Source: Pseudomonadota bacterium (GTDB lineage Bacteria > Pseudomonadota > Gammaproteobacteria > Burkholderiales > Thiobacillaceae). Taken from it: 62,154 nucleotides of DNA. Under the pieces are notes generated by a model. It had not been told where the DNA came from. It saw nothing but the letters and a program-made list of their open reading frames with translations, and did no database searches. The stretch lies in contig JAUYFG010000075.1 in assembly GCA_030690985.1 (NCBI GenBank), positions 1 through 62,154 of the forward strand, given 5' to 3'. Numbering within the stretch: position 1 is the first letter of the stretch; the number at the start of each line of letters is the position of its first letter. The position numbers were made by a program, and so were the translations under genes. Below are positions 25,080 through 39,346 of this stretch, piece after piece.

Positions 25080-26032
25080 ATCAAGCCCTCTTTGGCGATG
25101 CCTGTTCTACGCAAGATGCGACGCAAGGCCTGGAGCGCTTCGAGCTGAATCTGGCGGACGCGCTCGCGAGTCACGCCCAGATGGGTAGCCAATTCTTCGA
25201 GCGTTGCAACGTCCTCGTCATTGAAGCCGAAACGACGTTCGATCACCCAACGGTGTTTATCGCTGAGTTCCGCCAGCCAGGCCTGAACAAGGTGTTCGAG
25301 TTCCGCCATCTGCAGCATGTCCTCAGGGCGCTCGGAACGTTCATCGGCGATCGCCTCGCCGATCGACAAGGTCGGGTCGATATCGAGCGGCGCATCCAAC
25401 GAGGCGACGCGATCATTCAAGGACAACAAGCGCCGCACATCTTCCACCGGCTTGCCGGTCAAATGGGCGATCTCTTCCGGGCCGGCATCCGGCACGCCGT
25501 GTGTTTCCAGATGGCGCTGTGCGCGCAGGAAAATATTCAGTTCCTTGATGACATGGACCGGCAAACGGATGGTGCGGGACTGATTCATGATCGCCCGCTC
25601 GATGTTCTGGCGGATCCACCAGGTAGCGTAAGTGGAAAACCTGAAACCGCGTTCCGGCTCGAATTTGTCGAGCGCATGCATCAGACCAAGATTGCCTTCT
25701 TCGATCAGATCGAGCAGGGAAAGGCCGCGATTGAGGTAATGCTTGGCGATGTTCACCACCAAGCGCAAGTTGCGCTCGATCATTTTCTGGCGCGCTTCGA
25801 AATCGCCTTGACGCACGCGGAAGGCAAGCGCCCTTTCTTCCGGCTGGGTTAACAGCCCGCCACGACCAATCTCGTTGAGATAGAGCTGAGTGACGTCGGG
25901 AATCTCATCAAAGTCCTGTTCGACATCCGCGCGCGGCGCTTCCTGGACGATTTCCAGTTCGATATCTACAGGTGATTCCGATTCCGGGTCCACAGACTCA
26001 AGATAAATATCTTCCTGCATCTTCGTCCTCAA
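25076..26032 (-). CDS. rpoS: RNA polymerase sigma factor RpoS
   Basis: Stationary-phase and general stress sigma factor, 318 residues. Region 1.2 is DVTQLYLNEIGRGGLLT, region 2 includes GNLGLMHALDKFEPERGFRF and STYATWWIRQ, and region 4.2 is LGVTRERVRQIQLEAL. Its place directly after nlpD, with a four-base overlap, is the classic context. An alternative start four codons later (MQED) is possible. Confidence 0.96.
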   Translation of the reverse strand: MRTKMQEDIYLESVDPESESPVDIELEIVQEAPRADVEQDFDEIPDVTQLYLNEIGRGGLLTQPEERALAFRVRQGDFEARQKMIERNLRLVVNIAKHYLNRGLSLLDLIEEGNLGLMHALDKFEPERGFRFSTYATWWIRQNIERAIMNQSRTIRLPVHVIKELNIFLRAQRHLETHGVPDAGPEEIAHLTGKPVEDVRRLLSLNDRVASLDAPLDIDPTLSIGEAIADERSERPEDMLQMAELEHLVQAWLAELSDKHRWVIERRFGFNDEDVATLEELATHLGVTRERVRQIQLEALQALRRILRRTGIAKEGLI

Positions 26033-26775
26033 CTCTGTTTCGGCAGGTAGTTGAGCGGGTCCACGGGTTTGCCATACTCGCGAATCTCGAAATGCAACTT
26101 GACCCTGTCCGTGTCCGTATCTCCCATCTCGGCGATGGGTTGCCCGCGCGCCACATTCTGACCTTCAGTCACCAGAATGCGGGCATTGTGAGCGTAGGCG
26201 GAAAGTAGCGTCTTGCCGTGGCGGATGATGATGAGTTTTCCATAGCCCCGCAAGCCGGAGCCGGCATAGACCACCCTGCCGGGCGCAGCGGCCTGTACCG
26301 CGTGCCCGTGCACGCCGCCGATATCGATTCCCTTGCTGAGGTCATCGCCGAAGCGCGCCAGCAACGCCCCCCTGCTGGGCCAGATCCAGGACTCCGGCGC
26401 CGCCTCGTCGAGCGGTTCGGCAAGCAAGGCGGCATCGGCCTTGATGACGCGCGACGCCACAGCGGGCTTATCTGGCATTGCGGCGGTCGTAACTAGCGGT
26501 TTTGGTGGATGCAAGCGCAACAGATCGCCGCTACGAATATGCGACGGATCTGGCAGTTCATTCCATACCGCCAGATCGCGACTATCAAGGCCGTATTCAA
26601 ACGCTATTTTGAATAACGTATCGCCGCTCTGAATCCGGTAGTGGCCCGCCGGTGCGGGTGGAAGCGGCTTTTTTGCGTGGCTCGACTCTCGCACCGGAGC
26701 GGGACTCCGCGTGCCGGCGCACCCCGAAACCAGGAGCGGCGCCAGCAAAAGAAACAGAACCAGAAGAGGATTCAA
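26029..26775 (-). CDS. nlpD: NlpD/LppB-type LysM-M23 lipoprotein
   Basis: Outer-membrane lipoprotein that activates cell-separation amidases. A lipoprotein signal peptide starts at a TTG (26775) and ends in the lipobox LLVSGC. One LysM domain lies at about 45-90 (YRIQSGDTLFKIAFEYGLD), and a C-terminal M23 domain (about 140-245) lacks the full zinc site (SKGIDIGG lacks the first histidine), as in non-catalytic NlpD. The frame extends upstream to 26961, but only through a repeat element. GAGGAA seven bases before the TTG, within that element, supports the TTG start. Confidence 0.88.
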   Translation of the reverse strand: MNPLLVLFLLLAPLLVSGCAGTRSPAPVRESSHAKKPLPPAPAGHYRIQSGDTLFKIAFEYGLDSRDLAVWNELPDPSHIRSGDLLRLHPPKPLVTTAAMPDKPAVASRVIKADAALLAEPLDEAAPESWIWPSRGALLARFGDDLSKGIDIGGVHGHAVQAAAPGRVVYAGSGLRGYGKLIIIRHGKTLLSAYAHNARILVTEGQNVARGQPIAEMGDTDTDRVKLHFEIREYGKPVDPLNYLPKQS

Positions 26776-27014
26776 CCTATTTTCCTCAGTTGAACGCGCC
26801 CGAGTGTGCGGCTGGCGAGTCGGCTGGCAAGGCGCGACGACGCGCGGGGTCGTTTCCCGCAAGGAGAAGCAACGCAGCCAGACGGCCCGAAAACCGCGCA
26901 ATCGGGCGCGTAGCGGCGCAACCCAAATGGTGAACGCCATCGGAGGCGCAAACGCCAGCATCCATGCGGCATCACAAGGGCTAAGAAGCGGTCAACTGAG
27001 GAATATAGGTTCAA
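26771..27014. mobile_element. 244 bp MITE-like element, copy 1
   Basis: Terminal inverted repeats of 23 bases with two mismatches (TTCAACCTATTTTCCTCAGT... and its inverse ending TATAGGTTCAA). The body matches the element at 38490-38731 over its whole length, with about 15 percent differences, and includes the ends CGCGCCCGAG and TCGGGCGCGTAG that pair with each other. It encodes no credible protein. Copy 1 lies exactly between pcm and nlpD, overlapping the stop of one and the start of the other. It could be a miniature transposable element or a structured RNA. Confidence 0.82.
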
Positions 27015-27667
27015 CTCACCCCGGAGAGCAAAGGCACGAATTTCACCGCCTCCAACTCGCGTTCTTTGAACCCGCCATCGAGTTCGGCTTCCACCACAAT
27101 CAAGCGTTGCGATTCGCCCGCTCCGACCGGCGCGACCAAGCGGCCGCCAGGCTTGAGTTGCAGCTTCAACTCCTCGGGGATATACGGCATGGCTGCGGCT
27201 ACGACAATTGCATCGAAAGGCGCCGCGGCCCTGTATCCCAAACTGCCATCGACGTTCTTGATCAACACATTGTTGATGCGCAATTCCCGCAAAGCCAAGC
27301 GCGCCCGCCCAACCAGTTTGGCAATGCGCTCCAGACTCAGCACTTCCTTCGCCAACTTGGACAAAACTGCGGCCTGATAACCGCATCCGCCGCCGATTTC
27401 AAGCACCCGATCCAACATCTGACCACGACAAGCCAGCTCACAACTGCGGGCGACAATATAAGGGCTTGAAATGGTCTGGCCTTGGCCTATGGGTAGCGGC
27501 GTATCGTCGTAAGCGCGTTGCTGGATACTCTCTTCCAGAAACGGGTGCCGAGGCACCGCATTCATCGCTGCCAGCACGATAGGGTCTTTAATGCCCTGCT
27601 CTTTCAATCGCTCCAGCATGCGTGCCCGCGCACGCTGCGAGGTCATCCCGATGCCATTCACGGTCAT
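27011..27667 (-). CDS. pcm: Protein-L-isoaspartate O-methyltransferase
   Basis: Repairs isoaspartyl residues in aged proteins with S-adenosylmethionine. 218 residues from the ATG at 27667. [19 protein letters not shown] is the SAM-binding motif I (GTGSGY in most homologues) and [17 protein letters not shown] is motif post-I/II. The family signature [11 protein letters not shown] is present. The start overlaps the surE stop by four bases. The TGA stop lies within the terminal repeat of the adjacent MITE-like element. Confidence 0.94.
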
Positions 27668-28410
27668 CGAGACAACCAATCTTCGACCAGACCCATTTGC
27701 ACGTATCGGGTCAAGTCCAATTGCAAGGGTGTCAGGGAGATTTTGCCTTGCGCCACCGCGTGAAAATCCGTGCCCGGGCCGGCGTCTTGTGCGGCACCTG
27801 CCGCCCCTACCCAATACATGGTTTGATTACGCGGATTGACTGTCTTCACGGTATCTTGCGCCTTGTGACGGCGACCCAACCTGGTCACCTCGACACCCTT
27901 GATCTCTTCAGCCGCGATGTCGGGCACGTTCACATTAAGCAGAACATGCTCCGGAAAAGGTTGGGTAGAAAAGCGCCGAACCAGGCCAGCAACAAAATCG
28001 GCGGCGGTATCAAAATGCTCGGACTGAATATTTGCCAGGGATACGGCGATGGATGGAATGCCAAGAAGGAAACCTTCTGTCGCAGCCGCGACAGTTCCCG
28101 AATACACCGTGTCGTCGCCCATGTTGGCACCATGATTAATGCCAGAGATCACCATATCGGGCAACTGCGGGAGCAATCCCGTCACGGCAAGGTGGACGCA
28201 ATCCGTGGGAGTGCCATTGACGTAATGAAAACCAGCCGTCGACTGGCGCACCATCAACGGGCGGTCAAGCGTAAGAGAATTGCTGGCCCCGCTACGGTCG
28301 CGCTCAGGCGCGACCACGGTGACATCATGGCCCTGACTTTTGAGTGTCGCGGAAAGAACGGCTAAACCTGGTGCAAAGTAGCCGTCGTCGTTGCTGATCA
28401 GAATCCGCAT
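27664..28410 (-). CDS. surE: 5'/3'-nucleotidase SurE
   Basis: Survival-protein nucleotidase of the surE-pcm-nlpD-rpoS stress cluster. 248 residues from [16 protein letters not shown] (metal-binding aspartates in NDDG). The SGAS motif appears as [12 protein letters not shown], and [19 protein letters not shown] holds the other active-site residues. The frame is open further upstream through the tRNA-Pro sequence, but this ATG matches the family. The distance from tRNA-Pro is 26 bases, so cotranscription is possible. Confidence 0.95.
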
Positions 28411-28436
28411 TCGCCGCGATGGTGAGAGATAAATAA

Positions 28437-28513
28437 TGGTCGGGGCGAGAAGACTCGAACTTCCGACCCCCTGCACCCCATGCAGGTGCGCTACCAGGCT
28501 GCGCTACGCCCCG
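28437..28513 (-). tRNA. tRNA-Pro (GGG)
   Basis: A 77-base cloverleaf. The acceptor stem CGGGGCG pairs with CGCCCCG, the D-arm is GCGCAGCCTGGTAGCGC, the anticodon arm is CCTGCATGGGGTGCAGG with anticodon GGG, the T-arm contains GTTCGAGTC, and the 3' CCA is encoded. Oriented with surE and merR. Confidence 0.97.
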
Positions 28514-28710
28514 AACTCATGAGATTGTAAAGGACAGTCATCCGCACCGCAAATACTGTTGAGAGAAAACACCACATTAATGACAGCCAAGGCAATCTGG
28601 TTCAGCGAACCCCGCCGCATCGCACACGGGAATTCATGCCAAGCCTTTGTTTAAACGAGACTTTAGTAGTTAAAAACGGGGGGATGTCAAAGGCATCAAC
28701 AGGCACAGCA

Positions 28711-28731
28711 GAAAGCGCCAATTCATGGCGC
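28711..28731 (-). terminator. Weak hairpin after the MerR-family gene
   Basis: GCGCCA and TGGCGC form a 6 bp stem with five-base loop on the minus strand, followed by TTTC, 12 bases beyond the merR stop. It is short for an intrinsic terminator. The rest of 28514-28742 shows no gene; the tRNA-Pro promoter may be there. Confidence 0.4.
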
Positions 28732-28742
28732 CAGCGAAGAAG

Positions 28743-29126
28743 TCAGACTTTTAACAGCGCGAGGATTGCAGCCAACTCATGCTTGATGTCTGCTGGTGTC
28801 ATGGCTTGCTCGTGGGCCTCTTCGAAAACAGGAACAGGGGAAGCCTCATCACCATTGCCTTCTGACAGCAATCGGTTACGGGCGCCGCTGATCGTAAACC
28901 CCTGTTCATACAGAAGCTCACGAATACGCCTGATCAACATAACCTCATGATGCTGGTAGTAACGGCGGTTACCACGCCGCTTGACCGGCCTCAGCTGGGT
29001 AAATTCTTGCTCCCAATAGCGCAGCACGTGAGGCTTTACACCGCACAACTCGCCTACCTCGCCGATGGTGAAATATCTTTTCGACGGAATAAGCGGGAGT
29101 TCAGAGCTCGGCAGATGTTCCGACAT
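28743..29126 (-). CDS. MerR-family transcriptional regulator
   Basis: 127 residues. The N-terminal MerR winged helix is [20 protein letters not shown], with [20 protein letters not shown] following. There is no metal-binding cysteine set at the C-terminus. This short MerR protein after ihfA is conserved in beta- and gammaproteobacteria, function unclear. The start overlaps the ihfA end by 26 bases, so they are cotranscribed. Confidence 0.9.
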
Positions 29127-29409
29127 GAGCCTCTTCCACCATGGCCTTCAATTTTTGGCTCGCATGAAATGTCACCACACGACGTGCTGTGATGGGCATT
29201 TCTTCACCTGTTTTTGGATTACGGCCAGGACGCTGGGGTTTTTCGCGCAGCTGAAAATTGCCAAAACCGGAAAGTTTGACGCTGTCTCCATTTTCCAAGG
29301 CAGTTCTCACTTCTTCGAAGAAGGTTTCCACCATGTCCTTGGCTTCACGCTTGTTGAGCCCAACCTTCTCGAACAACAGGTTGGCCAATTCGGCTTTGGT
29401 AAGGGTCAT
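29101..29409 (-). CDS. ihfA: Integration host factor alpha subunit
   Basis: 102-residue HU/IHF-family DNA-bending protein; pairs with Ihf[21 protein letters not shown] at the start and the DNA-binding arm [20 protein letters not shown] with the intercalating proline are diagnostic. Placed 15 bases after pheT, as in many Proteobacteria. IHF often assists sigma-54 promoters such as the one at 7326. Confidence 0.97.
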
Positions 29410-29424
29410 GCGGGTAAAACTCCG

Positions 29425-31800
29425 TCAGCTACGCAATAAGGCGTTGTGGTTCTTGACCAGGATATTGACCACTTCCGCCACAGTAGAATCGATTTCTGAA
29501 TCTGTAAGCGTTTTCTCAGTATGTTGTAACAACATATTGAAAGCAAGGCTTTTTTTGTCAGCTTCCACGCCTTGGCCCTGGTACACATCAAAGCAGCTAA
29601 TGCCAGCCAGCAGGGGGGGTGAAACAGCTCTCACCGAAGCCAGCAAATCATCCAACTGGGTTTTCGCATCCACAATTACGGCAATGTCGCGCCGAACCGC
29701 CGGGAAACGCGGCATGCCCTGATAGCGCGGCACGCCTCGCTGTAAAAGAGGGGCTACATCCATTTCGAGCAGCACAGGGGATTTTGCAAAACCATATTTC
29801 TGCGTCAATCGCGGATGTAGAACGCCTAACCAGCCGATAGGCTGTCCAGCGACGAAAATCTCAGCGCTTTGCCCAGGGTGCAGCGCACCATGATTCGCCT
29901 GCTGCAGTTCCACCGGCAAGGGATGCAGCAACGCTTCCAGATCGGCGCGCAGATCATAAAAATCTGCCTGACGCGACTTTTCTCCCCACTGCTCGTTGTG
30001 GACAGCGCCGTAGGCAAGCGCACCTAGACGCATGGGCTGCTGGTCTGCTGTGCTGGCAAGAAAAGCTCGCCCGACTTCAAAAATCTGCAAACGTTCCTGG
30101 CCATGATTGAGGTTGTGACGCAACGTTTGAATCAAGCCGCCGACCAAAGAACCACGCATGGCCCCCATTTGGCTGGCAATCGGGTTGAGCAAGGGCAGCG
30201 TTACACCAATCACACGAAAATCACGATCCAGATCTTCAGAGATAAAGCTGTAGGTAATGACTTCTTGGTAACCCCTTGCTGTCATTAACTTCTTAACATC
30301 CTGAGTAGTGCGCGTTCCCTCGCCAACCGGCAACATGACATGCTCACCCCGCAGGCGCACGGCTGGAATGGCGTCGTATCCGTGCACACGCGCCACTTCC
30401 TCGATGAGGTCAACTTCACGCGTGATGTCGAAACGGTGACTGGGAGGCGTAACCCGCATCGGCTCAAACACAGTATCGAGGTGCATTCCCAGACGCTTGA
30501 GAATGCCCAGCATCGCTGCATCACCCAACTCGAAGCCCAGGATGCGCCTGGCCCGAGCAGGCCGAAACTCGACTGCAGCAAACTTTTCCACGCCTTTCCC
30601 GGCTTCAACTAATGGCCCGCATTGGCCACCGCAAATCTCCAGAATGAGGCGGGTGGCGCGCTCCATCGCACGCCGCGGCAATGTGGCATCGACACCACGC
30701 TCAAAGCGATGGGAAGAATCTGTGGACAAACCGAAACGACGCGCGCGCCCAACGATTGCATTCGGCGCGAAATGCGCGGACTCAAGAAAGATGTCACACG
30801 TTGTGTCAGACACGGCGCTCGACGAGCCGCCCATAATGCCGGCCAGGGCGAGAGGACCGCTGTCATCGGCGATCACCAGGACGTCTGCATCTCCGTCCTT
30901 CCCGGAAAACTCGATGGTTTGATCATTGAGTAACACCAGTTTTTCGCCGGCACGCGCCATACGAACCTGGATACCGCCGCGCAAACGGGCGAGATCAAAT
31001 CCATGCATGGGTTGCCCAAGTTCCAGCAAGACATAGTTGGTGATGTCCACGACTGGATGAATCGCGCGCAGCCCTGAACGCTCCAGACGTTGCACCATCC
31101 AGCGCGGGCTGCTTGCCTTCGGATCGATGCCGCGAATCACCCGGCCGCAGTAGCGCGGGCATGCCACATCGGCAGCAATGGCAATCGGGTGGACATCGGC
31201 CAGATTTGCAGCAACCGGAACGCAATCCACTTCCACGCACGGCGCATCCACTAGCGCCGCGACCTCCCGGGCAATACCGACGATAGACAGACAATCACCC
31301 CGGTTGGGCGTGAGCTTGAGCGTAATCAGCCGATCATCAAGATCGAGGAATTCACGCAAATCAAGACCAACCGCAGCTTCGGCGGGCAATTCAACAATGC
31401 CGTCAACGCCACTAGCAGTTGGCAGCCCCAGCTCTTTGGCGGAACACAACATGCCAAAAGAAGCGACACCACGCACCTTGGCTTGCTTGATATTGAATTC
31501 CGGTAGTTGTGCACCGACGCGAGCGCATGCCGTCTTCAGTCCCACGCGAGCATTGGCGGCGCCGCAGACGATGGTGAGCGGCTCGCCGTCACCCACATCG
31601 ACCTGACAGACCTGAAGGCGGTCTGCATCGGGATGCCTTTCCGCACGGATGATTTCCGCCACAACGACTTCGGTAAAGGGGGATGCCGCAGGCTCGATAG
31701 CCTCGACTTCCAAGCCGGCCATGGTCAGAAAATGGCCGAGTTGTTGCGAATTCAGTTCGGGATTGACGAGGCTGCGAAGCCAGGATTCAGAGAATTGCAT
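29425..31800 (-). CDS. pheT: Phenylalanyl-tRNA synthetase beta subunit
   Basis: 791 residues from MQFSESWLRSLV (31800). It has the N-terminal tRNA-binding EMAP-like domain (about 40-150), the B3/B4 editing region (about 205-390), the B5 domain (about 400-475) and the C-terminal anticodon-binding domain (about 698-790, FPAVRRDIAVIVDAKTQLDD). The frame opens upstream of 31800, but this start fits the family. Functions as an alpha2beta2 enzyme with PheS. Confidence 0.97.
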   Translation of the reverse strand: MQFSESWLRSLVNPELNSQQLGHFLTMAGLEVEAIEPAASPFTEVVVAEIIRAERHPDADRLQVCQVDVGDGEPLTIVCGAANARVGLKTACARVGAQLPEFNIKQAKVRGVASFGMLCSAKELGLPTASGVDGIVELPAEAAVGLDLREFLDLDDRLITLKLTPNRGDCLSIVGIAREVAALVDAPCVEVDCVPVAANLADVHPIAIAADVACPRYCGRVIRGIDPKASSPRWMVQRLERSGLRAIHPVVDITNYVLLELGQPMHGFDLARLRGGIQVRMARAGEKLVLLNDQTIEFSGKDGDADVLVIADDSGPLALAGIMGGSSSAVSDTTCDIFLESAHFAPNAIVGRARRFGLSTDSSHRFERGVDATLPRRAMERATRLILEICGGQCGPLVEAGKGVEKFAAVEFRPARARRILGFELGDAAMLGILKRLGMHLDTVFEPMRVTPPSHRFDITREVDLIEEVARVHGYDAIPAVRLRGEHVMLPVGEGTRTTQDVKKLMTARGYQEVITYSFISEDLDRDFRVIGVTLPLLNPIASQMGAMRGSLVGGLIQTLRHNLNHGQERLQIFEVGRAFLASTADQQPMRLGALAYGAVHNEQWGEKSRQADFYDLRADLEALLHPLPVELQQANHGALHPGQSAEIFVAGQPIGWLGVLHPRLTQKYGFAKSPVLLEMDVAPLLQRGVPRYQGMPRFPAVRRDIAVIVDAKTQLDDLLASVRAVSPPLLAGISCFDVYQGQGVEADKKSLAFNMLLQHTEKTLTDSEIDSTVAEVVNILVKNHNALLRS

Positions 31801-31843
31801 GGCGTCAGATGTAGTTGCGAGTAGTTGCGATTTGCCTGACGAA

Positions 31844-32863
<1,020 letters not shown>

Positions 32864-32892
32864 CTAACCCATAGTGCCGTTACAACATAGCC

Positions 32893-32926
32893 AGAAAAGA
32901 AAAAGGGAGGCCTAAGCAGGCCTCCC
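32893..32926 (-). terminator. Intrinsic terminator between rplT and pheS
   Basis: On the minus strand GGGAGGCC and GGCCTCCC form a perfect 8 bp GC-rich stem with a six-base loop, followed by TTTTTCTTTTC. It ends the infC-rpmI-rplT unit or acts as a pheST attenuator; I see no phenylalanine-rich leader peptide. Confidence 0.9.
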
Positions 32927-32948
32927 CTCAGCTTGAGCGCAGACTTAC

Positions 32949-33314
32949 TTACGCCCCCAGGCTGGCCTTGGCCTGCTCAGCAATCTTGGCAAAAGCAGGC
33001 TGGTCAAAAATCGCCATATCGGAAAGCACCTTGCGGTCGATCTCGATGGCGGCCTTTTTCAGGCCGCACATGAACTGGCTGTAATTCATTTCCATTTCCA
33101 ACCCACGCACTGCCGCATTGATACGGGCAATCCAGAGCCGACGGAACTGACGTTTTTTCTGGCGACGGTCACGGTATGCATATTGACCGGCCTTCATGAC
33201 CGCTTCGTTAGCTACCCGGAATACGTTCTTGCGACGACCACGGAAACCCTTGGCTGCGTTCAATACCTTTTTGTGGCTGGCGCGAGCGGTTACACCACGT
33301 TTAACGCGAGGCAT
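32949..33314 (-). CDS. rplT: 50S ribosomal protein L20
   Basis: 121 residues, [19 protein letters not shown] at the start, strongly basic, canonical length. L20 binds 23S rRNA early in assembly and, in E. coli, represses its own operon. Follows rpmI by 15 bases. Confidence 0.99.
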
Positions 33315-33329
33315 GTCTGATCTCCTTTG

Positions 33330-33527
33330 TTAAGCGTAGGGCATCATGTCACGAACGTGACCGATGTCAGCAGGATGAACTTCGGACATTCCACGCAGAT
33401 GGCGTTTCCGCTTGGTGGTTTTCTTGGTGAGGATGTGGCGCATGTAGGCGGATGAACGCTTGATGCTACCGTTCCCTCGAACGCGGAAGCGCTTGGCGGC
33501 TCCGCTCTTGGTCTTCATTTTGGGCAT
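33330..33527 (-). CDS. rpmI: 50S ribosomal protein L35
   Basis: 65 residues, [20 protein letters not shown] with KRHLRG near the middle, the typical L35 pattern. It sits between infC and rplT in the universal infC-rpmI-rplT order, 122 bases after infC. That interval shows no other gene and may hold operon-control RNA structure. Confidence 0.99.
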
Positions 33528-33649
33528 GGTTAGCTCCTATTTCTTCTATGCCTGTGGCGGCCCCCAACGGGAACACTTGAACAGCCACACTGCACTTGTT
33601 TACAACGTCCCAACCGGACGGCTTAAAGGCCCGCGCCCGCCTTACAAAA

Positions 33650-34171
33650 TCAAGCCTTTTTCTTCGGGGCCAACACCATGATCATCTGGCGCCCTTCCAG
33701 CTTGGGGAATTGCTCGACGATGCCATGTTCAGCCAGATCGGCCTCGACACGCCGGAGCAACTGCATACCAAACTCCTGGTGAGCCATTTCACGGCCTCTG
33801 AAGCGCAATGTGATCTTGGCTTTGTCGCCCTCATCCAGAAAACGGATCAGATTGCGCAGCTTGACCTGATAGTCATTGTCATCAGTCGCCGGCCGGAATT
33901 TGACTTCCTTGATCTGTATCTGCTTCTGTTTGAGCTTGGCCTCGTGCTGCTTCTTGCTCTCCTGGTACTTGTATTTGCCGTAATCCATGATTCGGCAAAC
34001 CGGGGGTTGCGCCTGCGGCGCGATCTCCACCAAGTCCAATTCAGCTTCTTCGGCTTTGGCCAAAGCCTCACGCAGGCTAACGATACCCAGCTGCTCGCTT
34101 TCCACACCCACCAGTCGGATCGGCGATACATCTATTTCGCCATTGATCCGGGGTTCCTTGTCCTGTGCTAT
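33650..34171 (-). CDS. infC: Translation initiation factor IF-3
   Basis: IF-3 checks start-codon/initiator tRNA pairing on the 30S subunit. The N-domain block [20 protein letters not shown] extends upstream of the first ATG, so the true start is a rare codon. ATA at 34171 follows AAGGGG by six bases and gives 173 residues, the normal length; infC genes typically use AUU, AUC or AUA for self-regulation. The C-domain (about 85-173) contains [17 protein letters not shown]. An intrinsic terminator ends just upstream of the Shine-Dalgarno. Confidence 0.93.
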
Positions 34172-34184
34172 CTCAAGCCCCTTG

Positions 34185-34220
34185 AAAAAACGAGGAGCCG
34201 ATCAGTTGCATCGGCTCCTC
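34185..34220 (-). terminator. Terminator/attenuator between thrS and infC
   Basis: GAGGAGCCGAT (34220-34210) and ATCGGCTCCTC (34202-34192) form a perfect 11 bp stem with a seven-base loop, then GTTTTTTC. The T-run ends four bases or so before the infC Shine-Dalgarno (AAGGGG), so any infC transcript from a promoter inside or before thrS must read through it. Confidence 0.92.
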
Positions 34221-34227
34221 AGGTTAT

Positions 34228-36123
34228 TTACCCACTTTCATGCAGCTTGCCGAGGAAGGTTTCCAGGTCCATCTGACCGAGATCCTCGCCTCCGCGTTTG
34301 CGAACCGCCACCTTGTTTTCCTGACGTTCTTTCTCGCCAACGATGATCTGGTAGGGGACGCGCTGCATGGAATGCTCGCGGATTTTATAGGTGATCTTCT
34401 CGTTTCTCAAGTCGGAAACCGCGCGTATGCCTTGTTTTTTAAGGTTTTGCACGATTTCGGCAGCATATTCCGCCTGACTGTCGGTGATATTCATCACCAC
34501 CACCTGCACCGGGGAGAGCCACACCGGGAAATTGCCGGCGTAATGCTCGATCAGGATGCCGATGAAACGTTCCATCGAACCCAGAATCGCGCGATGCAGC
34601 ATCACCGGCGGTTTGCGCGTGTTGTCTTCGTCGACGAACTCGGCGCCCAGGCGCACCGGCAGATTGAAATCAAGCTGAATGGTGCCGACCTGCCAGAGGC
34701 GTCCGATCGAATCCTTCAGAGTGAATTCGATCTTCGGCCCGTAGAAAGCGCCTTCGCCCGGTTGCAAGTCGAAGTCCAGGTTGTTCTGCTCCAGCGCCGC
34801 CGCCAGGCCGGCTTCCGCCTTATCCCAGGATTCGTCGGAACCGACGCGCTTTTCCGGGCGGGTGGACAGCTTCACCAGCACGTCGACAAAGCCGAAGTCG
34901 GCATATACGGCTTGCAGCATCTTGATGAAGTCCGACACCTCGGCCTGAATCTGGCCTTCGGTGCAGAAAATATGGGCATCGTCCTGGGTAAACGCACGCA
35001 CCCGCATCAGGCCATGCAACGCGCCGGAGGGCTCGTTACGGTGGCAGGAACCGAATTCGGCCAGGCGCAACGGCAGGTCGCGGTAGGAATGCAGGCCGTG
35101 GTTGAAAATCAGCACATGGCCGGGGCAGTTCATCGGCTTCACCGCGTAATCACGGTTTTCCGAAGCGGTGGTGAACATGTTTTCCCGGTAGTTGTCCCAG
35201 TGGCCGGATTTCTCCCACAGCGACTTGTCCATCACCGTCGGCGTCTTCACCTCTTGGTAGCCATACTCGATGAACTTGCGCCGCATGTACTGCTCGATTT
35301 CCTGCCACATCACCCAACCATGCGGGTGCCAGAACACCATGCCTGGCGATTCTTCCTGCATGTGGAACAGATCGAGCTGCTTGCCGAGACGGCGGTGATC
35401 GCGCTTCTCCGCCTCTTCCAGGCGATGCAGGTAGGCGGCCAGGTCGTCCTTGTTGCCCCAGGCGGTGCCATACACGCGCTGCAACATCTCGTTCTTCGAG
35501 TCGCCGCGCCAGTAGGCGCCAGCCAGCTTCATCAGCTTGAACGCCTTGATCTTGCCGGTGGACGGCACGTGGGGGCCGCGGCAGAGGTCGATGAAATCGC
35601 CCTCGCGGTACAGCGAGATGGTCTGGCCGGCGGGAATCGAAGCAATGATCTCAGCCTTGTAGCGCTCGCCGATGGATTCGAAAAACGCCACCGCCTGATC
35701 GCGATCCCACTCCTCGCGCGTCAGCGGAATGTCTTTCTTGGCCAGCTCACCCATGCGCTTCTCGATCGCCGCCAGGTCTTCCAGCGTAAAGGGGCGCTTG
35801 TAGGAGAAGTCGTAATAGAAGCCGTCTTCGATCACCGGGCCGATGGTCACCTGGGCATCCGGGAACAGCTCCTTCACCGCGAAGGCCAGCAGGTGAGCGG
35901 TGGAGTGACGGATCAGATCGACGCCGTCGGCGTCCTTGTCGGTGACAATGGCGAGATTGGCATCTTTCTCGATACGGAACGAGGTATCGACCAGTTCGCC
36001 ATCCACCTTGCCGGCCAGCGCCGCGCGAGCCAGGCCGGCGCCGATGCTGGCGGCCACCTCGGCTACCGTTACCGGCGCATCGAAAACACGTTCGGAACCA
36101 TCGGGAAGACGAATTACTGGCAT
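34228..36123 (-). CDS. thrS: Threonyl-tRNA synthetase
   Basis: 631 residues from [15 protein letters not shown] (36123). An N-terminal TGS domain (about 1-62), the editing domain with [16 protein letters not shown] (about 70-220), the class II catalytic core with motif 2 [20 protein letters not shown], and a C-terminal anticodon-binding domain (about 535-631). The open frame before the ATG runs through tRNA-Val and is not coding. First gene of the translation cluster after tRNA-Val. Confidence 0.98.
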
Positions 36124-36143
36124 GTCAAACACCTTCGGAAATG

Positions 36144-36170
36144 AAAAAGCCGGAACGGCTGTTCCGGCTT
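36144..36170 (-). terminator. Intrinsic terminator between tRNA-Val and thrS
   Basis: AAGCCGGAAC and GTTCCGGCTT pair perfectly (10 bp, four-base loop) and run into TTTTC on the minus strand. It ends the tRNA-Val transcript, or lies in the thrS leader as an attenuator, 21 bases before the thrS ATG. Confidence 0.88.
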
Positions 36171-36179
36171 CTGCTTTGT

Positions 36180-36256
36180 TGGTAGGCGCGATTGGACTCG
36201 AACCAACGACCCCCACCATGTCAAGGTGGTGCTCTAACCAGCTGAGCTACGCGCCT
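36180..36256 (-). tRNA. tRNA-Val (GAC)
   Basis: A 77-base cloverleaf: acceptor AGGCGCG/CGCGCCT, D-arm AGCTCAGCTGGTTAGAGC-type, anticodon arm CCACCTTGACATGGTGG with anticodon GAC, T-arm containing GTTCGAGTC, encoded CCA. Confidence 0.97.
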
Positions 36257-36401
36257 AAGGTCGGGGCGCATTCTAGCGAGGTTCGCCCGGGGTTACAAAT
36301 ACAGATTCCAACTTATTGGCAAAACTAGACAGATGCTTTCCATGTGCAGTCGCCACCTCGGCGGCTAAAATTGCGCGACCATTTCAACCCGCGCAGATGC
36401 C

Positions 36402-38492
36402 ATGTCCCGCAAGATACTCGTCACTTCCGCCCTGCCCTATGCGAACGGCAGCATCCACCTGGGCCATCTGGTCGAATACATCCAGACCGACATCTGGGCG
36501 CGCTTCCAGAAAATGCGCGGCCACGACTGCCGTTATGTCTGCGCCGATGACACGCACGGCACGCCGATCATGTTGCGGGCGGAGAAAGAAGGCATCACGC
36601 CGGAACAACTCATCGACCGCACCTGGCACGAGCACAAGCGTGATTTCGACGGCTTCCATGTCGAATTCGACAACTACTACTCCACCAACACGCCGGAAAC
36701 CCGGCATTACGCCGACACCATCTATAACCGCCTGAAAGAAGCCGGGCTGATCGAGGTGCGCACGATCGAACAGTTCTACGACCCGGTGAAAGAAATGTTC
36801 CTGCCGGATCGTTTCATCAAGGGCGAATGCCCCAAATGCCACGCCAAAGACCAGTACGGCGACAACTGCGAAGCCTGCGGCGCGGCCTATCAACCCACCG
36901 ATCTGATCGAGCCCTATTCCGCCGTCTCCGGCGCCAAGCCGGTGCGCAAGCAATCCGATCACCACTTCTTCAAGCTGTCCGACCCGCGCTGCGCCGACTT
37001 CCTCAAACACTGGACCGCCGACCCCGCGCACGTCCAGGCCGAAGCCGCCAACAAGCTGGACGAATGGCTGCAAGCCGGCCTCTCCGATTGGGACATCTCG
37101 CGCGACGCACCCTACTTCGGCTTTGAAATTCCGGGCGATGATGGCAAACCCACGGGCAAGTATTACTACGTCTGGCTGGATGCGCCGATCGGCTACATGG
37201 GCAGTTTCCAGAACTACTGCGACAAGCACGGACTGGATTTCGACGAATACTGGAAGCCGGATTCCACTGCTGAGGTCTACCACTTCATCGGCAAAGACAT
37301 CCTCTATTTCCACGCCCTGTTCTGGCCCGCCGAACTGCACCACGCCGGCTTCCGCACGCCGACCGGCGTGTTCTGCCACGGCTTCCTCACCGTCAACGGC
37401 CTGAAGATGTCGAAATCGCGCGGCACCTTCATCACCGCCGAAAGCTACCTCAACCACCTCAACCCGGAATGGCTGCGCTACTACTACGCCGCCAAACTGA
37501 ACGGTTCGATGGAAGACATCGACCTCAACCTGGAAGACTTCACCGCGCGCGTAAACAGCGACCTGGTCGGCAAGTACGTCAACATCGCCAGCCGTTGCGC
37601 AGGGTTTATCAGCAAGCGTTTCGGCGGCAAGCTGGGCGAAATCGACCGCGCGGCGACGGCCGAATACGAAACGGCATTCCAGGCGGGTGCTATCGCCAAC
37701 GCCTACGAAGAACGAGACTTCGGCCGCGCCTTGCGTGAAATCATGCGACTGGCCGATGTCGCCAACCAGTACATCGCCGAGAAAAAGCCCTGGGAGATGG
37801 CCAAGCAGGAAGGCCGCGAAACCGAACTGCACGAAGTCTGCTCCACCGCGATGACCCTGTTCCGCGACCTGACCCTGTACCTGAAACCCGTGCTACCCAA
37901 GCTGGCCGAACAGGTCGAAGCCTTTCTCAATATTCCGCCCCTGGCCTGGAGCGACAACTGGGCCGCCCTGCCCACCGGCCACGTCATCAACGACTACCAG
38001 CACCTGATGACCCGCATCGACCCGAAGAAAATCGAGACCATGGTTGAAGAAAACAAACAGAGCCTGGCGCCCGCGCCGGAAGCCGCGCCGGTCAGACATG
38101 CCGAGCACCAGCAGAACGAGGCCAAGGCCGAAGTCGCCGCCAGTGAAGAAAAATCAGCCTGGGAGTCGTTCATCGGCATCGACGATTTCACAAAAATCGA
38201 TCTGCGCATCGCCCGCATCGCCAACGCCGAACATGTCGAAGGCGCCGACAAGCTGCTCAAGCTCACGCTCGACCTGGGCCAGGAAACCCGCACCGTATTC
38301 GCCGGCATCAAGGCCGCTTACGCCCCGGAAACGCTGGTTGGCCGGCTCACCGTCATGGTCGCCAACCTGACCCCGCGCAAGATGAAATTCGGCCTCAGCG
38401 AAGGCATGGTGCTGGCCGCCAGCGACGAACGCGGCGGCCCCTTTCTGCTCGCTCCGGATAGCGGCGCACAACCGGGCATGCGCATCAAATAA
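36402..38492 (+). CDS. metG: Methionyl-tRNA synthetase
   Basis: 696 residues. The class I HIGH motif is in [15 protein letters not shown] near the N-terminus, the zinc knuckle is [18 protein letters not shown] (about 145-162), and KMSKS is KMSKSRGTF (about residue 334). A C-terminal tRNA-binding domain (about 595-696, [20 protein letters not shown]) follows a charged linker. Its TAA stop lies at the first base of the adjacent MITE-like element. Confidence 0.98.
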
Positions 38493-38731
38493 TCCTAGAA
38501 ACCTCAGTTGAACGCGCCCGAGGGTGCGGTTTTCGGGTCGGCTGGCAAGGCGCGCCGACGCGCGGGGCCGTTTCCCGCAAGGAGGAGCAACGCGGCCAGA
38601 CGACCCGAAAACCGTGCAATCGGGCGCGTAGCGGCGTCACCCAATGGGTGAGCGCCATCGGAGGCGCTAACGCCAGCATCCTTGCGCCCTCACGAGGGCC
38701 AAGGAGCGGTCAACTGGGGTTCCTAGGATTA
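38490..38731. mobile_element. 242 bp MITE-like element, copy 2
   Basis: Ends TAATCCTAGAAACCTCAGTTGA (split as TAATCCTAGAA and ACCTCAGTTGA) and its inverse at 38710-38731, with three mismatches. Internally CGCGCCCGA at about 38512 pairs with TCGGGCGCG at about 38618, and GCGGTTTTCGGGTCG with CGACCCGAAAACCG, forming a long two-part hairpin; TCACCCAATGGGTGA is a further perfect palindrome. It matches copy 1 at 26771-27014. No protein-coding frame is credible. Confidence 0.83.
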
Positions 38732-38809
38732 TGCCCGCGCGGCGAGGTAGGCCGGGCGCCCCGCACTGGCTACAATCTCCCCACTTCAGCAACCTGAACG
38801 GAAACCCCC

Positions 38810-39346
38810 ATGAGCAACATCGACTATCTGGCCATCACCGCTTCCGGCGAAGACAAGGTCGGCCTGGTGCAGCGTTTCACCAATCGCATCGCCGAAGCCG
38901 GCGGCAATATCGAGGAATCCCGCATGGCGGTCCTGGGCGGCCAGTTCGCCATCCTGATGCTGATTTCCGGGCCCTGGAACGCGCTGACCAAGCTGGAAGA
39001 CCGGCTCGACCAGGTCGGCGACGAACTCGGCCTGTCGATCATCCACAAGCGCACCCGCCGGGCCGAACGCACGACACCGCTGGTGCCTTACCGCGTCAAT
39101 GTGGTGGCGATGGACCATCCCGGTATCGTCCACAGCCTGGCCGATTTCTTCGCGCGCCAGGGCATCAACATCGAAGAACTCACCACCGACACCTACCCCG
39201 CGCCGCACACCGGCACCCCCATGTTCTCGGTCAACATGACCGTCGGCGTGCCCGGTGACATGCACCTGCCGACCCTGCGCGGCGATTTCTTCGAGTACTG
39301 CGACAACCTCAACCTCGACGCGGTGATGGAACCGGCACGGGATTGA
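38810..39346 (+). CDS. GcvR-like tandem ACT-domain protein
   Basis: 178 residues with two ACT domains: about 4-75 (YLAITASGEDKVGLVQRFTN) and about 92-165 (VNVVAMDHPGIVHSLADFFA). E. coli GcvR has this architecture and antagonises GcvA in control of glycine cleavage. No gcv genes are nearby, so the partner is unknown. The start ATG follows GAACGGAAA. Confidence 0.85.
   Translation: MSNIDYLAITASGEDKVGLVQRFTNRIAEAGGNIEESRMAVLGGQFAILMLISGPWNALTKLEDRLDQVGDELGLSIIHKRTRRAERTTPLVPYRVNVVAMDHPGIVHSLADFFARQGINIEELTTDTYPAPHTGTPMFSVNMTVGVPGDMHLPTLRGDFFEYCDNLNLDAVMEPARD

Follow-up and report, generated by a model that had tools for sequence, protein, structure and literature searches.

Two copies of a short element in the window

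The stretch of DNA analysed here, 62,154 nucleotides of contig JAUYFG010000075.1 and hereafter called the window, contains two copies of a 234-bp element, one situated between a gene for a LysM/M23 peptidase and pcm, the other between metG and a gene for an ACT-domain protein (Table 1). The findings presented below make it likely that this element is a non-autonomous miniature inverted-repeat transposable element (MITE) of the IS1380 type and of about 234 bp that often lands in stop codons, has a plus-strand fold kept by selection and shares its core with elements from other phyla.

An earlier reading of the sequence alone had reported two copies aligning from end to end, and this is borne out: they match over their whole length with 89% identity across 218 aligned bases, and an 18-bp inverted repeat, CCTnnnnnCCnCAGTTGA, is present at both termini of each copy. 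The limits proposed for copy 1 in that sequence-only reading, 26771-27014, do enclose the element but are too wide by five bases on either side, which represent an exact target duplication, TTCAA. The flanks of copy 2, ATAAT and ATTAT, differ by one mismatch. The internal pairings that had been named are present as well, the GCGGTTTTCGGGTCG/CGACCCGAAAACCG stem being fully paired in copy 2 and containing mismatches in copy 1. The list of open reading frames (ORFs) holds none of 90 or more amino acids lying wholly within either copy; at 234 bp and free of a transposase gene, both have features expected of MITEs.

According to the ORF list, copy 1 is inserted in the TGA of pcm and copy 2 in the TAA of metG. 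The left duplication of copy 1 is the apparent source of the TTG start of the peptidase gene, with GAGGA located upstream in the element end. Judged from the sequence, insertion of copy 1 may have preserved a working stop-start overlap on both sides.

Table 1. Positions of the element copies, their parts and the neighbouring genes in the window (R1, covariance model of the structured core)
Feature	Position	Strand	Basis and remarks
Copy 1 of the element, 234 bp	26776..27009	+	Alignment and family searches
Copy 1, left target duplication, TTCAA	26771..26775		Sequence
Copy 1, right target duplication, TTCAA	27010..27014		Sequence and ORF list; contains the TGA stop of minus-strand pcm
Copy 1, left terminal inverted repeat	26776..26793	+	
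Copy 1, right terminal inverted repeat	26992..27009	-	
Copy 1, structured core	26794..26911	+	Model R1, 114.4 bits
Copy 1, right arm	26912..26991	+	Pairing less conserved
Copy 2 of the element, 234 bp	38494..38727	+	Alignment and family searches
Copy 2, left flank, ATAAT	38489..38493		Contains the metG TAA stop (38490-38492)
Copy 2, right flank, ATTAT	38728..38732		Same sequence without the element in relative G022 (L465)
Copy 2, left terminal inverted repeat	38494..38511	+	
Copy 2, right terminal inverted repeat	38710..38727	-	
Copy 2, structured core	38512..38629	+	Model R1, 124.7 bits
Copy 2, right arm	38630..38709	+	
LysM/M23 peptidase gene, ActS/NlpD-like	26032..26775	-	Under the curated cut-offs of those models; inferred TTG start in the left target duplication of copy 1
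pcm, protein-L-isoaspartate methyltransferase	27011..27814	-	233.7 bits, cut-off 188; stop inside the target duplication of copy 1
metG, methionine--tRNA ligase	36402..38492	+	Terminates in the left flank of copy 2
ACT-domain protein, glycine-cleavage-repressor-like	38810..39346	+	Under the curated cut-off of that model

Copy number, insertion sites and mobilization

The element is by no means restricted to two copies. Copy 1 yields 67 BLAST matches in its own genome; these include fragments of a single copy as well as inverted self-matches, and many are situated at contig ends. Copy 2 as the query finds matches in 35 of 61 genomes (its own included) and 13 of 36 genera. A plasmid collection contains two distant relatives (Caballeronia, 70% identity, and Polaromonas, 73%), one of them annotated under the match as 'hypothetical protein' and one as 'phospholipase D family protein'; these two records bear on the earlier suggestion that frames through the element probably give rise to spurious hypothetical proteins. 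In a phage collection, blastn with copy 2 gave no match. Relatives both shorter and longer than the window copies, mostly of 108-354 bp, carry ends and flanks of this kind. Within many copies of the own genome, GGA is followed by a 60-bp hairpin (TAAGCAGGGACTT..CATCAG; G000:C242:2761-3114 (L018), L008, L009, L010, L015, L016 and L017), which is nearly identical in relatives (L120, L130, L158 in G022 and L232 in G006). This hairpin may be a mobile unit by itself, one copy holding it at two different places.

From the collected loci, 99 distinct full-length copies (222-262 bp allowed) were selected by means of a core word and their terminal sequences, without regard to target duplications. Both flanks are available for 97 of these, and they form an exact 5-bp repeat in 56 cases, agree in four of five bases in 29 and in fewer in 12. 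The pattern NTNAN, with T second and A fourth, is present on both sides of 85 of the 97 copies. A 3-bp duplication of TNA instead of five bases was considered and rejected: among the 77 copies whose inner triplets agree, one outer base is repeated in 69 and the other in 64, and the existence of nine non-palindromic exact repeats also counts against it.

Whatever its second base, a TNA triplet reads as a stop on one of the two strands (TAA, TGA, or TTA and TCA read backwards), so that insertion into a stop codon restores the stop and leaves the gene intact. For 34 of 96 copies a predicted ORF terminates at the duplicated TNA, as compared to 22 of 1378 control WTNAW sites from the same loci; this contrast depends on a crude ORF caller and on controls including intragenic sites, and it is enlarged by the purging of harmful insertions. 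Landing in stop codons could explain in simple terms how a mobile element spreads through densely packed genomes with little harm to genes.

Relatives possess metG without the element. Among 23 genus genomes searched, the metG locus was looked at in 13; in all of these the gene stops at the equivalent codon and the element is absent from the ~28 bases shown behind it. Relative G022 carries the sequence to the right of copy 2 without the element; this evidence concerns copy 2 and each flank separately, not one joined site. The genes flanking copy 2 reside on separate contigs in all 17 relatives for which both sides are listed. Furthermore, the own assembly contains a second metG-like stretch (G000:C15:25086-25887) with 86% identity to metG of the window, which suggests either a paralogue or a bin of mixed origin, and this draft of 314 contigs with a listed contamination of 5.28% may mix two related genomes. 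Because of the mismatched flanks, the separate contigs of the flanking genes and the second metG-like stretch, copy 2 is best read as having arisen by crossing-over between two copies or else as a junction created during assembly of the draft. Mobility as such is supported by the many copies, the terminal inverted repeats, the 5-bp target duplications and the metG genes of relatives lacking the element.

Beyond what had been noticed from the sequence alone, the ends of the element may well be of the IS1380 transposase type. IS1380-family transposases (NF033539) are matched in 11 of 23 genus genomes, with four above the curated cut-off, and in 62 of 300 order genomes. Clear ends, identical or similar to CCCAAATTTCCCATTAG, were seen together with exact 5-bp repeats (TTCAT, CTCAT, TTGAA, ATGAA, TTCAA, ATTAA and ATAAA) at seven out of 13 IS1380 loci that were scanned. 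The repeats all read NTNAN, and five of the seven loci stem from one genome. In addition, ends of the window's type are found next to broken IS1380-like transposase genes. At locus L489 the end CCTAAAAACCTCAGTTAT, flanked by TTGAT, adjoins a frame judged by eye to be similar to the C-terminal portion of the L096 transposase, and a 306-aa piece on the same contig matches IS1380 (83.9 bits, curated cut-off 180). At L096 itself the end CCTAAATCCGGCAGTTGC with its flank TTCAT is located past a broken IS1380 frame, a piece of which scores 54 bits (cut-off 180). The target rule shared with one IS1380 subgroup and the broken relics with such ends point to an IS1380-family transposase as the mover, which, when supplied in trans, would recognize the 18-bp ends, insert the element at NTNAN and duplicate five base pairs.

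Several observations weigh against this assignment. Both relics, with 83.9 and 54 bits, fall below the curated cut-off, the C-terminal piece at L489 taken alone has no family match, and an intact IS1380 element with ends of the window's type was not found, the 137-aa transposase piece of L096 matching two of 117 family genomes including its own. Six of the 13 IS1380 loci scanned lack clear ends with an exact repeat (e.g. L486 with ATTAT/ATTAA), the 5-bp duplications of an IS1380 subgroup in genome G542 do not follow NTNAN, the IS1380 target at L194 is TGAAA, and further subgroups have 4-bp-type flanks of the CTAG or TTAG type; the NTNAN rule is not general to the IS1380 family. G542 is a closed genome with 18 equal-scoring IS1380 transposase matches and three matches to the core described below. 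Two candidates for an autonomous partner were discarded: the IS1380 element L092 of genome G016 has similar but unmatched ends (CCTGAATCCGCAAGTTCA) and no target duplication, and L104, first taken as the partner, is now read as a decayed element beside an IS1380 remnant.

The folded interior and its shared core

On the plus strand, minimum free energy z-scores amount to -11.4 for copy 2 and -6.7 for copy 1, with none of 200 dinucleotide shuffles as stable. The alignment of the 99 copies yields one consensus, in which an end stem and a long central stem are combined with an internal loop bearing an apical hairpin; its right arm varies more. Seven of the 80 pairs of this structure, and none outside it, covary above the highest value of a null in which the inferred substitutions of each column were placed randomly on the tree (20 simulations with a script of our own, not R-scape). 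In a model alignment for which 42 diverse copies were chosen and 27 located in untrimmed sequence (L268 left out, L003 added), both partners have changed in 27 of 43 pairs; these 27 diverse cores reach a covariation score of 0.361 as compared to 0.156 after shuffling and at most 0.078 after sliding.

Pairing is strand-specific. G-T exceeds A-C by 257 to 15 in the contiguous central helix, by 46 to 11 in the ends and by 67 to 22 in the next helix, and it is the commonest state of two adjacent central-helix pairs (32-123 in 75 and 33-122 in 57 of 98 copies). The plus strand also folds more stably than its complement in every one of 41 non-redundant cores and in 37 of the 38 whole elements compared, which says that it is the predicted folded strand. 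Because the covarying pairs all lie inside the structure and G-T outnumbers A-C on the plus strand, the modelled fold is what the interior is selected for; a long stem, a conserved internal loop and an apical hairpin would be the parts maintained, and the wobble pairing suggests that they act as RNA. On the other side of the balance, the short helix 49-53 contains G-T and A-C six times each, the right arm has 250 G-T but also 105 A-C, all of these counts depend on a structure predicted for the plus strand, and the bias towards this strand, taken alone, is compatible with RNA and single-stranded DNA alike. The earlier proposal of an undescribed MITE or a mobile structured RNA is nevertheless supported in both halves, since copies are plentiful, relatives lack the element at either flank of its metG site, and covariation as well as strand-specific wobble pairing are found. 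Scanning the window and nine loci with the covariance models of Rfam 15 returned only tRNAs above threshold, and weak matches in six loci were not convincing.

The second point going beyond the sequence-only reading is that the core is common to elements with other ends. A covariance model of the 118-nt core (R1), whose E-values are rough, matches 48 of 369 class genomes at E <=0.001. Some matches have ends of the window's type (e.g. L284, L288 and L289), others carry ATACCCAAAGCGTTTGAG (L305, similar in L298), TATACCCGTCACGGACAGG (L302), AGTGCCCTTTAACGCAAG-like sequences (L306, L308), GAGCCTGTTTCAGTAG (L307) or AGGGCCTGTTAACAC (L309). L307, L309, L311 and L312 are elements of ~270 bp with two core copies in opposite orientation. 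When 18 hand-picked elements were compared by BLAST between end types, it was mainly the middle that aligned (approximately positions 46-118), and for some of the end types a relationship covers most of their length.

An IUPAC pattern for the internal loop retrieved at least 119 stretches from named genomes. The loop motif approximates GGCAAGGCGCGACGA(C/G)G ... GAGGAGCAACGCNGCC and in our reading holds two neighbouring tandem G-A pairs, the outer of which is replaced by Watson-Crick pairs in some copies. The matches listed include 80 loci, all from metagenome-assembled genomes, and bear the labels Acidobacteria, Myxococcales and other Deltaproteobacteria, Eisenbacteria, Planctomycetota, Gemmatimonadetes, Verrucomicrobia and Gammaproteobacteria/Methyloversatilis, seven labels which we take to be different phyla in current taxonomy. 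Among these listed matches several named genomes carry the core on many contigs, and the single Gemmatimonadetes record has no clear ends. Ends of the window's type recur in L366 (Methyloversatilis), L377 and L378. Palindromic elements of ~157-168 bp, which have other ends and flanks of the TA, TNA or CTAG type, account for many of the 82 hits; the search for these ends rewarded direct repeats, so that flank matches are descriptive, four of the 82 are without an end pair and several arms are inner stems only.

In 44 non-redundant cross-phylum cores, flanking arms pair with their own partner at 9.43 of 12 positions, as compared to a mean of 7.53 for swapped partners and 7.95 for the highest of 200 shuffles, and G-T outnumbers A-C by 39 to 10. 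A model-fitted alignment shows changes on both sides in 39 of 43 pairs, a figure that leans towards the structure to which the alignment was fitted. Greater stability of the plus strand is seen in 33 of the 44 cores; the 11 cores without it count against the explanation favoured here.

A possibility to be taken seriously is that the fold is selected as DNA, namely as a hairpin or cruciform, or as single-stranded DNA during replication or transposition, which a transposase or a host DNA protein would read. Many of the shorter elements being long palindromes would agree with this, as would the start of the common part at ~46-57 bp from the end in the 18 elements compared and the absence of any bias in orientation to neighbouring genes: among 77 copies with neighbours within 600 bases, 15 and 14 lie in the two co-directional settings, which at the same time counts against the explanation favoured here. 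G-T is better tolerated than A-C in DNA too, but RNA tolerates such pairs better, and G-T is the commonest state at 32-123 and 33-122. Moreover, a core common to different end types is not tied to one transposase. We favour a role of the core at the level of RNA over one of single-stranded DNA.

We regard it as unlikely that the element serves at 3' ends as a bidirectional terminator or mRNA stabilizer in the manner of REP or ERIC sequences. Its fold is very stable, and 41 of the same 77 copies lie between convergent and only seven between divergent genes, but this position may merely reflect landing in stop codons and purging elsewhere, and copy 1 lies between two co-directional genes. A scan that covered the surroundings of copy 2 only revealed no terminator-like or promoter-like site, a result that weighs against this explanation and likewise against ours. 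Template switching from arm to arm (quasi-palindrome correction), a type of mutation known in palindromes, could keep the arms complementary in the absence of selection and would yield covariation in stems and ends; it should, however, remove G-T and A-C alike, whereas the central helix keeps them at 257 to 15, and it should erase the mismatched internal loop, yet this is the part kept in distant model hits, which renders such an origin quite improbable. That the cross-phylum matches reflect chance or contamination is very improbable, for although the listed records are all metagenome-assembled and the exact pattern occurs in none of 398 Pseudomonadota genomes (the own one included) and no viral contig, the pattern is offset by one base, misses the window's own copies and is uninformative on their family, of which R1 does find members, and fewer than 0.1 random matches are expected by a hand estimate as opposed to the at least 119 stretches, with better pairing of own than swapped arms and repeated occurrence within single genomes.

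The core might be a transferable structured RNA module that has been taken up by miniature elements from several unrelated transposon classes (IS1380-like with NTNAN targets, or with flanks of the TA, TNA or CTAG type) in several phyla and whose predicted transcript engages a universal host factor, thereby aiding spread or making insertions harmless. We put this forward as a speculative possibility that is somewhat doubtful at present.

Significance and comparison with known systems

In many cases, bacterial MITEs are taken to be insertion sequences reduced by deletion. In the family described here, the interior appears to be kept by selection in a strand-specific manner, and the same core stands between different ends. 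If true, short elements carry a functional nucleic-acid part, and the question of what MITE interiors do becomes directly testable. The core is a candidate RNA family without a match in Rfam 15.

The element most likely is a MITE of the IS1380 type and, as far as searched, new as a family. A search of freely accessible papers gave no description of element or core; the accessible portions of PMC10969869, PMC2229807, PMC4133298 and PMC2718517 describe other MITEs or repeats.

IS1380 insertion sequences resemble the element in their ends starting with CC, the 5-bp duplication and, in one subgroup, the NTNAN targets, and two broken IS1380-like relics below the family cut-off have ends of the window's type. 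In contrast to them, the window element lacks a transposase, and its interior resembles no protein-coding part seen. Repetitive extragenic palindromic (REP) sequences and bacterial interspersed mosaic elements (BIMEs) are palindromic, intergenic and present in many copies, as is the case for the window family. REP sequences are not known to have a target duplication or long terminal repeats, unlike the window element. A REP-like palindrome, GTAGGAGCGGGCTTGCCCGCGA or nearly identical, is instead located behind some ends of the window's type (L149, L169, L171, L172 and L177).

TIMEs, miniature elements derived from Tn3, are characterized in the accessible part of PMC4133298 as non-autonomous, from 262 bp in length, with AT-rich duplications of 5 or 6 bp and 38-bp ends of the Tn3 type. 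They share with the window element the lack of autonomy and the short AT-rich duplications and differ from it in their ends. An origin from Tn3 or TIMEs was rejected because the 18-bp ends starting with CCT do not fit this 38-bp type. Correia/NEMIS, ERIC, RUP and CIR elements, as far as covered by the accessible part of PMC2229807, are likewise short and mostly intergenic and possess terminal repeats and a stable fold; the window family is set apart from them by a 5-bp NTNAN target and by a core that extends across end types and phyla.

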